From NCBI GenBank assembly GCA_038400315.1, contig CP151667.1, positions 868,001 through 932,000 on the forward strand: a stretch of 64,000 bases of DNA. Reading direction: 5' to 3'. The notes under the pieces are model-generated. The model was not told the DNA's origin, ran no database searches, and saw only the letters and a list, made by a program, of their open reading frames with translations. This stretch comes from Isosphaeraceae bacterium EP7. GTDB taxonomy: Bacteria; Planctomycetota; Planctomycetia; Isosphaerales; Isosphaeraceae. The translations under genes and the position numbers were made by a program. Each line of letters opens with the position of its first letter. The first letter of the stretch is position 1. This document shows positions 31,017 through 36,127 of this stretch, one piece after another.

Positions 31017-31218
31017 GGCCGAGAACAGCGATTCAGTCGCATCTGGGTCTGACCCGATCTCTGTTCGCGATCGCGACAACCTCGCGTATCTGAATAGTTT
31101 CGTTGATCGAGATGGTCGCCATGGACCGTTGTTCATTGGATGAAATTGAGACGTTCCATTGCGAGTGATCGTTGTCCGTTTTTGGAATCGATTGTCCAAA
31201 TCATCCTGGTGAATCGTC

Positions 31219-31248
31219 TTGACCTTGGTGGGCGTCCGGGCCTAGATT
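31219..31248 (+). promoter_or_regulatory. Putative promoter of leader copy A
   Basis: TTGACC at 31219-31224 and TAGATT at 31243-31248 (18-bp spacer) sit at the same place as TTGACC/AAGATT in copy B. Copy A has the better -10 hexamer. Confidence 0.45.
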
Positions 31249-31274
31249 GTGCACTCTTCCACTCATCTCGCAGT

Positions 31275-31322
31275 AAGCCAGCCGATCCCTCTTCCTCCCT
31301 AGGGGGACTCGGCTGCGGGCTT
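31275..31322 (+). ncRNA. Conserved leader hairpin, copy A
   Basis: AAGCC-AGCCGA at 31275-31285 pairs with TCGGCT-GCG-GGCTT at 31309-31322 with a 3-nt bulge; TCCC/GGGA may extend it inwards. The last A-T pair of the inner arm is G-C in copy B, a compensatory change. A second hairpin with arms GCGAGC/GCTCGT follows near 31358-31376. Confidence 0.6.
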
Positions 31323-31535
31323 CTTTCGATGTCACGCGAATTCCAGAAAATTTCCCGCGAGCGTGTCCGCTCGTGCCTGGGTTACACGTTACGTCTCTCA
31401 GAAGCCTGGTTCCTACGATCGCTCCTCCTAATCCGTTGAGTGGGTGTCTGGTCTCGGCCAGGGATCGCTTGCTCATTCCCAAAGGCTATTCCAGTCCGGG
31501 TCGCGTCATTGCTTGCGCTCTGGGGAGTTCGTCGT

Positions 31536-31685
31536 ATCAATCTGCATCTCAGTTCGAGAAAAGCCGGATTCACCCCGATCCCTCTGCCGGAGGACTTCTC
31601 CATCATCGACGAACTGTCGCCCTCCGCGTCAGGACGCCCTGAGTCGGATGTATCCATCGCGCGTGAGTGTGTGGATATTCGCTAG
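31536..31685 (+). pseudogene. Decayed 5' end of a DUF1559 gene
   Basis: In copy A the sequence matching the start of the intact DUF1559 gene reads ATC instead of ATG at 31536-31538. The following frame keeps N-L-H-x-x-S-R-K-A-G-F-T, but the L-I-E-L-L-V-V-I-S-I-I of the pilin-like segment has become P-I-P-L-P-E-D-F-S-I-I. The frame then runs to a stop at 31685 with no further DUF1559 similarity. Both the initiation codon and the membrane/processing signal are therefore lost. It is a remnant left by duplication or truncated insertion, not an expressed gene. Confidence 0.75.
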
Positions 31686-31836
31686 CATCGGTTGCGATCG
31701 ACTTTGCGAATTCTTTCGTTGATCGAGATGGTCATCATGATGCGTGAGTGGGACTCACAAATCTCGGCTTTTGGTGCTCGATCAATGAGACATGAGGTTC
31801 ATACACCACACGAGGCAAAACCTCTCAGAAATTGTC

Positions 31837-31866
31837 TTGACCGCGTCGTGCATCGGGGTCAAGATT
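31837..31866 (+). promoter_or_regulatory. Putative promoter of leader copy B
   Basis: TTGACC at 31837-31842 is followed after 18 bp by AAGATT at 31861-31866, the counterpart of copy A. The -35 box is preserved in both copies, while the -10 is weaker here. Start of transcription would be near 31873. Confidence 0.4.
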
Positions 31867-31892
31867 GTGAGTCATCCCTCTCATCTTGTGGT

Positions 31893-31940
31893 AAGCCAGC
31901 CGGTGTCTCTTCCTCACGTAGAGCGCCCGGCTGCTGGCTT
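31893..31940 (+). ncRNA. Conserved leader hairpin, copy B
   Basis: AAGCC-AGCCGG at 31893-31903 pairs with CCGGCT-GCT-GGCTT at 31927-31940, keeping the 3-nt bulge of copy A; CTCT/AGAG can extend it. The loop sequences differ between copies while the stem is kept. A second hairpin GCGAGC/GCTCGC follows at about 31975-31993. It could be a regulatory 5' UTR element or an attenuator. Confidence 0.6.
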
Positions 31941-32177
31941 CTTAAGACGTTACGCTAAATTCAGGAAATTTCCCGCGAGCCTGTTCGCTCGCGCCTGTCT
32001 TTCGCGTCTTGTTTCCTAGAAGTCACGTTCCTTCGATCGCTCGTCCTAATCCGTTCTGTGGGTGTCTGGATTCGTCCAGGGATCGACTGCTCATCCCCGA
32101 AGGCCCTTCCGGCCCGGGTCGCGTCATTGGATGCGCGGTCCGCTGTCGTCTTTCTCGTTTTTCGCGGAGTTCGTCGT

Positions 32178-33311
32178 ATGAATCTGCATCGCGGTTCGAG
32201 AAAAGCTGGTTTCACCCTGATCGAGCTGCTGGTGGTCATCTCGATCATCGCAGTGCTGATCGCCCTGCTGCTGCCCGCCGTTCAGTCGGCACGCGAGGCT
32301 GCCCGACGCATCCAGTGCGTCAATAACATGAAGCAAATCGGCCTGGCAATGCACAATTACCAGGACACCTATGGCTCGTTCCCCACCGGCGGGATCACGG
32401 CCCAGGCGACCATGGACCAGGGTGCCTGGAATGGTCGTGCCAATCTGCTCTCGTGGCGGGCGATGATCCTGCCGCAGATGGAGCAGAGCAATATCTTCAA
32501 CAACATCAACTTGATGGTTGAATCGTCCGGCGGCGGTGCCGACGGCGGGTCGTTCTACACGATCTGGATGACGGCGGTGAACGCCTTCCTTTGCCCCTCA
32601 GACGGCACCAACGGCAACGGCTTCCTGCCGCTGGGCTCCGGCGCCAATCCCGCCGGCCAGTCGGCCGCCGCGACTCCCCCGGCCAATCCGCTGACCGGTG
32701 CCGCGACCCTCGTCGTTCCCGTCTCGAATTATGGCGGCAGCTTCGGCGACAACTACTGCGGCGGCCCGCTCAACGGCGGCCTGCCCTGGGAAACCGATCC
32801 CAACGCCACCACCCTTCCCGCCGGCATCGCTCGTATCGGCTGGCACGGCTTCTGGGGCACGAAGTACGGCCCTGCCTTCGCCACGACCGGCGGCACGATG
32901 CGTGGTGTGTTCGACTACCGCACCATGCAGACCGCGACGATCAACAGCTTCACCGACGGCACCAGCAACACCATCATGGTCGGCGAAGTCCTTCCGGTCG
33001 CCGCCGCCGACAACAATCTGTGGCACTTCAACGGTGGACTCGCCGGTACCACCGTCCCGCTCGGTTGGAACGCCAATACGGTCCCGGCCACGGCCGCAAA
33101 TTGCGCCTTCAACTGGCAGGGTGCGTCCGCGCCGGTCGGTTGCCGCTACTCGGCCGCGGCGAAGGGCTTCATCAGCCGCCACCCCGGCGGCGGTAACTTC
33201 ATCTTCGGTGACGGCTCGGTCAAGTTCCTGAAGAACACGATCAGCATGCCGACGTACTGTGCCCTCGCCAGCCGCAATGGCGGCGAGGTCGTCAGCTCCG
33301 ACGCTTACTGA
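32178..33311 (+). CDS. DUF1559 domain protein with type IV pilin-like N-terminus
   Basis: A 377-residue protein. The start ATG 32178 has GGAG upstream and gives a short basic leader (M-N-L-H-R-G-S-R-K-A-G) followed by the prepilin motif F-T-L-I-E. Cleavage is expected after G11, with the conserved Glu at +5 (E16), then a hydrophobic helix to about residue 36. The DUF1559 body has N-N-M-K-Q-I-G-L-A-M-H-N-Y, F-L-C-P-S-D, the D-G-T-S-N-T-I-M-V-G-E block and the C-terminal F-G-D-G-S-V-K-F-L. DUF1559 proteins are pseudopilin-like, massively expanded in planctomycetes, and of unknown function. A small lipoprotein gene follows, the common pairing. Confidence 0.95.
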   Translation: MNLHRGSRKAGFTLIELLVVISIIAVLIALLLPAVQSAREAARRIQCVNNMKQIGLAMHNYQDTYGSFPTGGITAQATMDQGAWNGRANLLSWRAMILPQMEQSNIFNNINLMVESSGGGADGGSFYTIWMTAVNAFLCPSDGTNGNGFLPLGSGANPAGQSAAATPPANPLTGAATLVVPVSNYGGSFGDNYCGGPLNGGLPWETDPNATTLPAGIARIGWHGFWGTKYGPAFATTGGTMRGVFDYRTMQTATINSFTDGTSNTIMVGEVLPVAAADNNLWHFNGGLAGTTVPLGWNANTVPATAANCAFNWQGASAPVGCRYSAAAKGFISRHPGGGNFIFGDGSVKFLKNTISMPTYCALASRNGGEVVSSDAY

Positions 33312-33339
33312 GGTCGAGACCCCGCCGTCCGCTCATTTC

Positions 33340-33388
33340 CGCCCCGTTCCCGTCGGGCCGATTCATCGGCCCGACGGAGCGGGGCGGG
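33340..33388 (+). promoter_or_regulatory. Intergenic hairpin between DUF1559 and lipoprotein genes
   Basis: A perfect 12-bp inner stem (CGTCGGGCCGAT / ATCGGCCCGACG, 2-nt loop) at 33351-33376 is extended by outer arms CGCCCCG/CGGGGCG. There is no U-tract, so partial termination or mRNA stabilisation that sets DUF1559:lipoprotein ratios is more likely than full termination. Confidence 0.55.
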
Positions 33389-33496: not shown

Positions 33497-33973
33497 ATGA
33501 ATAAATCCATCGCTACACTGGTCGCGTCTTGCTCCCTCGTTGCCGCCACCTTGATCTCGCTGCCCGGCTGCGGTGATGACGGATTCGGCAAGCGTTATCC
33601 GGTCTCCGGCAAGATTACCTACAAGGGTGAAGCGGTCTCGAAAGGGAATATTAACTTCCTCCCCCTCGACAATACGACCGGTCGGGCCGCACAGAGCGAG
33701 ATCACCGATGGCTCCTATAGCCTGACGACCGCCTCTCCCAACGACGGTGCACTGCCGGGTAAGTACAAGGTGACCATCATCTCCGTCGAAGCGGATTACA
33801 GCAAAGTGATGGCCAACGCCAAGGGCGGAGCAGGTCGGCAGGAAGACGTCTACAAGGCGAACAAGTCCGCGAAGAAGCTCGTTCCCTCCAAGTATTCCAT
33901 CTTCCAGACCACGCCTCTCGAAGAGACCGTGAAGGAAGAGTCGAACACAATTAACTTCGACCTGACTGACTGA
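33497..33973 (+). CDS. Small lipoprotein with transthyretin/carboxypeptidase-regulatory-like fold
   Basis: A 158-residue protein with a lipoprotein signal. The lipobox L-P-G-C places the acylated Cys at about residue 25. The mature part has the short beta-sandwich pattern P-V-S-G-K-I-T-Y-K-G-E-A-V, G-N-I-N-F-L-P-L, then T-D-G-S-Y-S-L, P-G-K-Y-K-V-T-I and a terminal I-N-F-D-L. Planctomycete genomes contain many such genes immediately downstream of DUF1559 genes, so the two products probably work together at the cell envelope. Function is unknown. It ends at a strong terminator. Confidence 0.8.
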   Translation: MNKSIATLVASCSLVAATLISLPGCGDDGFGKRYPVSGKITYKGEAVSKGNINFLPLDNTTGRAAQSEITDGSYSLTTASPNDGALPGKYKVTIISVEADYSKVMANAKGGAGRQEDVYKANKSAKKLVPSKYSIFQTTPLEETVKEESNTINFDLTD

Positions 33974-34230: not shown

Positions 34231-35799
34231 TCAGTTGCAGCTCAGGCAGGCGGGGACGGCGACCGGCACGAATGTGCATGCCTGCACGGCGACCTGACGC
34301 TGAACGACCTGGGCGACGGTGCGATTCACCGTGACGGGGACCTGCTCGGCGACCGTCACCGGCACCTGACGCGAGGCCGTCTCGGCGACCATCCGGCAGG
34401 TCGTCACAGGGACGCGTTCGACATGCTCCTCGGAAACCATCTGGCAGGTGGTGACGGGGATGTTCTCGACGCGTTCCTCGGCGACCATCGAGCAGGTGCG
34501 GACCTCGTAGGGCTCGACTCGTTCCTCGGCGACCATCTGGCAGGTGGTGACGGGGATGTTCTCGACGCGCTCCTCGGCAACCATCGAGCAGGTGCGGACC
34601 TCGTAGGGCTCGACTCGTTCCTCGGCGACCATCTGGCAGGTGGTGACGGGGATGTTCTCGACGCGTTCCTCGGCGACCATCGAGCAGGTGCGGACCTCGT
34701 AGGGCTCGACTCGTTCCTCGGCGACCATCTGGCAGGTGGTGACGGGGATGTTCTCGACGCGCTCCTCGGCAACATAGGTGCAAGTACGAACGGGGATCTG
34801 ACGCATCACCGTTTCGGTGACATACGTCGTCTCGGCGACGTCCTGAACGATGGTCTGCGGCTTGTAAACGCGGCGGCAGACGGTGCGTGCAGGCTTCTGG
34901 ACGGCCACGGTGGCCCAGGTCTTTTTCTTGTGAAGGCAGGCGAACAGGCCGCGACGGGGCGCCTCCTCGCAGCCGCATTCCTGGACGGGGACGCGGACTC
35001 GACGCTCGACCACGGGGCCCGGGACGGTCACCATCTGTCGCTCGTAGTAACCGACCTCACGCACCATCTGGCGAACCGTCGTCACCGGCCGGCTGATCGT
35101 ATATGGCTGCTCGACCATCGACGTCTGGACGACGGGCCGCATGACGGTGTACTTGCGCTGCTGGGTTGCCGTCTGATAGACCGGCTTCATGACGGTGTAC
35201 CTGCGTTCCAGCCGCTGAGTCTGGACCACCGGCTTCATGACGGTGTACCTGCGCTGCTGGGTCGCGGTCTGGTAGACCGGCTTCATCACCGTGTACTTGC
35301 GCTCCATGCGCTGGGTCTGGACCACTGGCTTCATCACGGTGTACTTGCGCTGCTGGGTCGCGGTCTGGTAGACCGGCTTCATCACCGTGTACTTGCGCTC
35401 CATGCGCTGGGTCTGGACCACCGGCTTCATCACGGTGTACTTACGCTGCTGGGTTGCCGTCTGGTAGACCGGCTTCATGACGCTGTACTTGCGTTCGACG
35501 AAGCTGGTCTCGCGGACCGGCCGCATGACGGTGTACTGCTCCGAGCGGAGCTCGGTGCGGTAGCGGGTCTCCATCACCGTCAGGGGCTGGTTCTGGTAGA
35601 CGGTCTCGAAGACGGTCTGGACCAGGGGCTGGCACTGGGGTGCCAGTGAGACCACTTCATACTGAGTGGCGACGACGGGCGCCGGGCAGCAGCGGGTGCT
35701 GGCCCCGCCGCCGTAGGTGGCGAGGGCCGGGCTGGCGAGCGTGAGGACGGCCAGGGCGCCGCCCCAGCAGTGGCGTGTTGCTCGAAAGAACGTTGACAT
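34231..35799 (-). CDS. YTV-repeat exported protein with two 16-residue repeat blocks
   Basis: A 522-residue protein. The start is set at ATG 35799 (GGGGAG upstream), giving a signal peptide ending in S-P-A-L-A. A first block (about residues 85-240) contains about nine 16-residue units alternating M-K-P-V-Y-Q-T-A-T-Q-Q-R-K-Y-T-V and M-K-P-V-V-Q-T-Q-R-M-E-R-K-Y-T-V. This is the planctomycete YTV repeat. A central part has C-G-C and basic stretches. A second block (about 330-475) has about eight 16-residue units alternating M-V-A-E-E-R-V-E-P-Y-E-V-R-T-C-S and M-V-A-E-E-R-V-E-N-I-P-V-T-T-C-Q, with one Cys per unit. Regular beta-structure and disulphide cross-linking at the cell surface are plausible. 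Function is unknown. Confidence 0.85.
   Translation of the reverse strand: MSTFFRATRHCWGGALAVLTLASPALATYGGGASTRCCPAPVVATQYEVVSLAPQCQPLVQTVFETVYQNQPLTVMETRYRTELRSEQYTVMRPVRETSFVERKYSVMKPVYQTATQQRKYTVMKPVVQTQRMERKYTVMKPVYQTATQQRKYTVMKPVVQTQRMERKYTVMKPVYQTATQQRRYTVMKPVVQTQRLERRYTVMKPVYQTATQQRKYTVMRPVVQTSMVEQPYTISRPVTTVRQMVREVGYYERQMVTVPGPVVERRVRVPVQECGCEEAPRRGLFACLHKKKTWATVAVQKPARTVCRRVYKPQTIVQDVAETTYVTETVMRQIPVRTCTYVAEERVENIPVTTCQMVAEERVEPYEVRTCSMVAEERVENIPVTTCQMVAEERVEPYEVRTCSMVAEERVENIPVTTCQMVAEERVEPYEVRTCSMVAEERVENIPVTTCQMVSEEHVERVPVTTCRMVAETASRQVPVTVAEQVPVTVNRTVAQVVQRQVAVQACTFVPVAVPACLSCN
34410..34800 (-). repeat. 48-bp tandem repeats (96-bp higher-order unit), Cys-containing block
   Basis: About eight 48-bp units alternate between two types, giving a 96-bp period. 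Copies are almost identical at the DNA level, which points to recent amplification or gene conversion. They encode the Cys-containing block of the YTV protein. Confidence 0.9.
35085..35540 (-). repeat. 48-bp tandem repeats, YTV block
   Basis: About nine 48-bp units encoding the K-Y-T-V-M-K-P-V repeats, again of two alternating kinds with a 96-bp period. The central copies are nearly identical, while the end copies have diverged. Confidence 0.9.
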
Positions 35800-36127
35800 G
35801 CGTTTCTCCCCAGACTCCGATTCGGCGTCCCTGATGCAAATTTGAGAGTGCGATCGGCGTCGGCTTGTTGCGGAGGAGAGCGCCCACTCGTCCCTGAAGG
35901 CCCCCAACCACTCGACGATTGCAAACCCGGCGACCTGCCGAGCCACCGCGCGATCGTTGTTGCTCGCGCGACCGTCGCGTCCAAAGTAACTATAACATGG
36001 GGACTCTGGGAGAACGGCGGATTACGCAGTTTTCCTCAAGTCTTGTCCAGGGCCTGCCGGAGCATGCCAAGAGGCCGAATCGCAACGGGCATGCCGGGGC
36101 GCCTGGCAGACGCTTGCAAGCCGCACG
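35800..36127. other. Intergenic region upstream of the YTV-repeat gene
   Basis: This 328-bp stretch holds no gene. On the minus strand a TATAGT-like box near 35987-35997 could be part of the YTV gene promoter, which would give a leader of about 190 nt. The evidence is weak and no clear -35 box was found. Confidence 0.35.

Follow-up and report, generated by a model that had tools for sequence, protein, structure and literature searches.

The predicted mRNA leader of a DUF1559 gene in Isosphaeraceae bacterium EP7 has a fold whose selection at the RNA level is supported by refolding tests, by a bias toward the transcribed strand, and by independent leaders of another genus. The leader is present in two copies (A and B) in the window, which is the whole 64,000-nt stretch of DNA that was analyzed. 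It is a structured, fast-evolving mRNA leader that lies outside the recognized RNA families, and although its general kind is ordinary, it has apparently not been recognized before. To our knowledge, little is known about the function and regulation of DUF1559 proteins. A selected leader RNA on one DUF1559 subfamily offers a handle on that subfamily's control.

The duplicated leader and its hairpins

The gene (32178–33311, + strand) encodes a DUF1559 protein (PF07596, E 9e-50) with a type IV prepilin-type N-terminus (PF07963, E 1e-7; MNLHRGSRKAGFTLIELLVVI), both Pfam matches being above the cut-off. The DUF1559 family is hugely expanded in this 7.2-Mb genome, with 107 matches to PF07596, and a gene product of Tautonia sociabilis, a relative within the Isosphaeraceae, is 65% identical to the protein encoded in the window. 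Copies A (31212–31511) and B (31830–32129) align without gaps at 76% identity (∼77% over the aligned leader); by part, identity is 73 to 83% across most of the leader and 58% in the 24 nt 5′ of the first hairpin. Downstream of copy A lies a decayed DUF1559 gene start (31536–31610, + strand), found by comparison of the repeat family D2, whose members at 31524–31608 and 32166–32250 (the intact gene) are 84% identical. This remnant covers ∼70 nt of the gene's 5′ part, carries ATC in place of ATG, and has lost the prepilin motif. As copy A runs into the decayed start of the gene that follows copy B, it is a partial tandem duplicate whose own gene has been lost.

A consensus scan predicts a promoter for copy A (TTGACC-N18-TAGATT, 31219–31248, + strand; start at ∼31253–31256), with which the predicted promoter of copy B is aligned (TTGACC-N18-AAGATT, 31837–31866, + strand; start at ∼31870–31874). 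With such a sigma-70-like promoter just upstream, the first hairpin would lie ∼20 nt from the 5′ end of the DUF1559 mRNA, and the predicted starts place 13 to 22 unpaired nt before its stem. The predicted leader B is ∼305 nt long (31870–32177, + strand). A CTTGAC box occurs 150 to 540 nt upstream of 32 of 42 genes of the subfamily to which this gene belongs, taken across the Isosphaeraceae, versus 17 of the 87 other DUF1559 genes of the EP7 genome, and in 7.6% of shuffles. Farther upstream, ∼100 nt 5′ of the −35 box, the two copies share a 32-nt conserved island (31092–31123 in A and 31708–31739 in B, + strand) that is 88% identical and is perhaps an activator site, whereas the spacer between island and promoter is only 33% identical. 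A 20-mer from the island has no other site in the genome at up to two mismatches; it was rejected as a regulon motif, as it occurs at this locus only. The −35/−10 region of copy B (31835–31864) also contains an 8-bp inverted repeat, TCTTGACC...GGTCAAGA, which copy A lacks.

At the other end of the gene, folding predicts a very strong hairpin directly past the stop codon (33338–33387, + strand; ∼23 bp, GC-rich, without a U-run), whose best 60-nt window folds at −50 kcal/mol. Comparably strong post-stop hairpins follow nearly all of 22 orthologues. A small lipoprotein-like gene (33497–33973) lies downstream of this hairpin, and a long ORF on the − strand (34231–35946) with internal repeats (RKYTVMKPV..., MVAEERVE...) encodes a probable, repetitive surface protein.

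Hairpin 1 (31275–31322 in A and 31893–31940 in B, + strand) is the bulged stem AAGCC-AGCCGR...YCGGCT-NNN-GGCTT that the initial annotation had described in both copies, and all 17 of its pairs stand in each of them. The A and B versions differ by two-sided changes in two pairs and by one-sided changes in three more. The closing pair is A-T in A (31285/31309) and G-C in B (31903/31927), just as had been annotated; the other two-sided change, C-G in A (31287/31306) and G-C in B (31905/31924), had been missed. Part of what was described as a strongly differing loop is in fact stem, as pairing extends 4 to 6 bp into it. Hairpin 2 (31356–31375 and 31974–31993, + strand) has 7 bp in either copy, with G-C/G-U as the single difference, and begins 33 nt past hairpin 1 in both copies, in agreement with the equal distance that had been noted.

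Compared with dinucleotide shuffles, the hairpins reach z scores of −3.4 (A) and −2.5 (B). In a refolded null, the observed substitutions were placed randomly, the sequences were refolded, and the consensus energies were compared. The consensus energy of hairpin 1 was matched in 0 and 0.5% of the trials (P ≤ 0.005), that of hairpin 2 in 5.5 to 6.8%, and that of both hairpins jointly (146-nt region) in none. These refolded nulls, which assume uniform substitution, are the sound tests here. The column-shuffle control of the covariation tool gave 131/500, significance being unreachable with n = 2 sequences. Because that control is uninformative with two sequences, independent leaders were needed.

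Orthologous leaders and the search for relatives

Orthologues elsewhere in the Isosphaeraceae have kept the promoter, and their leaders are 150 to 475 nt long. Between genera, the leaders diverge beyond alignment (proteins 53–67% identical), which makes a single Isosphaeraceae-wide covariance alignment impossible. Even among close orthologues, with proteins 78 to 97% identical, the leaders often align poorly or not at all; those of five orthologues from genus g15 were unalignable and were left out of the pair tests. Full leaders of alignable pairs were tested against the refolded null on both strands. The A/B leader (∼300 nt) gave z = −4.0 on the transcribed strand (P < 1/400) and −2.45 on the reverse strand. 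Two independent orthologue pairs of genus g9 behaved similarly on the transcribed strand: L221/L222 with z = −6.0 (P < 1/400; reverse strand −0.24, upstream control −1.8) and L228/L229 with z = −4.35 (P < 1/400; reverse strand −1.6, upstream control +0.3). The pair L240/L241 reached z = −1.5.

No significant constraint was found in three pairs of a third genus, g10 (transcribed-strand z of −0.65, 0.2, and −1.1), or in the paralogue pair L059/L061 (z = +0.8), which means that the leader structure is not universal. The leader pairs of g18 likewise lacked a significant signal on the transcribed strand. On the reverse strand, one g10 pair scored z = −2.55; the test can therefore yield values near −2.5 that do not reflect the kind of signal looked for. 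Taken together, the leaders at the window's locus and those of genus g9 are under strong, strand-biased structural constraint, which elsewhere is absent or escapes detection. Across 32 leaders, the folding excess over shuffles sets in at the predicted transcription start, with none upstream (mean z of the best of three windows −1.3 from the start versus −0.5 upstream, P = 0.003). The 5′ end itself has no special folding peak, since windows at +80 to +120 match the first 60 nt in degree of structure.

A search of Rfam (4227 families) gave no match to the leader above the gathering cut-off, the only hits in the window being five tRNAs; the initial annotation had recognized no known riboswitch class, and this search bears it out. 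With the leader as BLAST query, only copies A and B were found in 59 genomes, and none of the weak 22- to 33-nt matches lies near a DUF1559 start. The covariance model R2 retrieved from 45 Isosphaeraceae genomes only the two copies plus one weak extra (L214). This best chance match of the model was rejected because it is a terminator-like hairpin with a T-run that lies 3′ of a coding region. Membership in a riboswitch class is not supported, given the lack of an Rfam match, of a conserved core, and of a covariance-model relative in the 45 genomes. Moreover, a literature search found no description of DUF1559 gene leaders. The leaders show a structural constraint that outlasts sequence similarity, in which case covariance searches find nothing even though the RNA is real. 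Of the structured regulatory RNA that had originally been proposed, the structure holds, being under selection by the refolded nulls, the strand bias, and the two g9 pairs; the regulatory part does not follow, as the leader has neither a conserved aptamer-like core nor a terminator.

Proposed message protection and alternative pairing

Most likely, the leader fold protects or meters the message. In its full form, which we advance tentatively and with somewhat less than even confidence, this reading holds that the copies begin long DUF1559 mRNA leaders (∼280–305 nt) with a selected fold, which would control the expression level through mRNA protection. Transcription would start at the predicted sigma-70-type promoter, and the 5′-proximal folded domains together with the post-stop hairpin would shield a long-lived, abundant message from RNase E-type decay. 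The leader sequence would be free to drift because any fold of suitable stability and placement would suffice, and the turnover of leaders whose proteins remain 78 to 97% identical suits such a generic role rather than a ligand pocket. The kept fold with its fast sequence turnover, the early structure, the post-stop hairpins, and the RNase E/G gene present in this genome all suit message protection. In E. coli, a protective stem-loop needs to lie almost at the 5′ end of the message, as in ompA; with the predicted start, the stem found here is not within a few nt of that end. Furthermore, a stability role alone fails to explain an alternative pairing that is kept in both A and B.

This alternative is a three-way junction obtained by energy folding (31268–31418 in leader A and 31886–32036 in leader B, + strand), formed when a downstream AGAAG[CT]C (31400–31406 and 32018–32024) base-pairs with the GGCTTCT of hairpin 1. 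In A, stem P1 is formed by 31268–31278/31409–31418, P2 is the upper part of hairpin 1, and P3 (31317–31324/31400–31407) encloses hairpin 2; in B, P1 and P3 lie at 31886–31896/32027–32036 and 31935–31942/32018–32025. All 46 pairs of the junction are standard in A and B alike, with three altered on both sides, a count that is partly circular, the structure having been derived from those two sequences. A count of no broken pairs between the copies versus 6.8 expected is partly circular on the same grounds. The predicted junction and the full-length hairpin 1 are mutually exclusive, and either is fully paired in both copies. Once the next ∼85 nt are added, the junction is predicted to be 8.2 kcal/mol (A) and 4.9 kcal/mol (B) more stable than the full-hairpin-1 fold.

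These features would be expected of a conformational switch, in which hairpin 1 forms in full first and AGAAG[CT]C then captures GGCTTCT to give the junction. The choice of fold, and with it access to the ribosome-binding site, could be swayed by temperature, by a ligand or protein, or by an sRNA. The Shine-Dalgarno sequence of B (GGAG, 32166–32169) is predicted to be ∼85% paired. In Rhodopirellula baltica, several DUF1559 genes are upregulated in cold and salt shock and downregulated in heat (PMC2754498), which recalls structured cold-shock leaders such as that of cspA. However, the energy calculation shows no inversion of the junction preference between 4 and 60 °C, the Shine-Dalgarno sequence stays paired throughout this range, and a temperature switch driven by folding energy was accordingly rejected. 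The outer stem AAGCC/GGCTT of hairpin 1 never varies, so that the outer part of the full-hairpin-1 fold has no covariation of its own, whereas P3 has one two-sided change (G-U/U-A). Other genera also share no conserved core. We consider a switch, the principal rival of message protection, unlikely.

The same pairs might instead reflect an element at the DNA level, that is, operators near the promoter, or neutral inverted repeats, chance palindromes inherited through the duplication. Such an origin would fit the somewhat constrained reverse strand of the A/B pair, as well as the facts that only two copies exist and that the refolding nulls assume uniform substitution. It is nevertheless rather improbable in view of the strand preference in three pairs, the outcome of those nulls, the independent pairs elsewhere, and the G-U pairs tolerated where an exact palindrome would be expected. 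Less probable again is a binding site for an RNA-binding protein or sRNA, in which the pyrimidine-rich CTCTTCCTC would be displayed on the selected stem: this segment is identical in A and B and its flanking pairs covary, but it does not recur in a fixed context in other leaders. We are also very doubtful of a lineage-specific, fast-evolving RNA switch, for which the junction leader with its exclusive pairings would respond to temperature, osmolarity, a ligand, or a protein as its signal and control this member of the greatly expanded planctomycete DUF1559 family, each genus having its own unalignable version. Finally, a transcription attenuator, in which one of the hairpins would terminate transcription under some condition, is most improbable: although CTTCTT follows hairpin 1, hairpin 2 of copy B passes a loose terminator scan, and L214 is terminator-like, no proper U-run follows either hairpin, terminator-like sites occur at chance level (3 found versus 2.1 expected), nothing of the kind is kept in orthologues, and the hairpins were thus rejected as intrinsic terminators.

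Comparison with known systems

The proposed message protection by the leader has its closest parallels in the 5′ stem-loops that stabilize ompA, aprE, and other mRNAs (reviewed in PMC7509114 and PMC3997798), including the pilin mRNA papA (cited in PMC3997798). Like the stabilizing stem-loops of ompA, papA, and aprE, the predicted DUF1559 leader combines an early hairpin with a long leader on the mRNA of a surface or secreted protein, and its fold outweighs its letters. It departs from those systems in the 13 to 22 unpaired nt that may lie ahead of the stem, in a structure that spans all ∼300 nt of the leader, and in a stability role that is a prediction. Leaders of the cspA type are similarly long and structured with alternative folds, and in another planctomycete, cold and heat alter the expression of some DUF1559 genes; here, however, no temperature-driven inversion is predicted, and the DUF1559 gene is unrelated to cold-shock proteins. 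With riboswitches, the leader would share its predicted three-way junction and mutually exclusive pairing 5′ of a gene, but it differs from them in having no Rfam match, no known ligand, and no conserved core outside one genome. The Rhodopirellula-1 motif, going by its table entry alone (Weinberg 2010, PMC2864571), resembles the leader in being a structured-RNA candidate of Planctomycetes.
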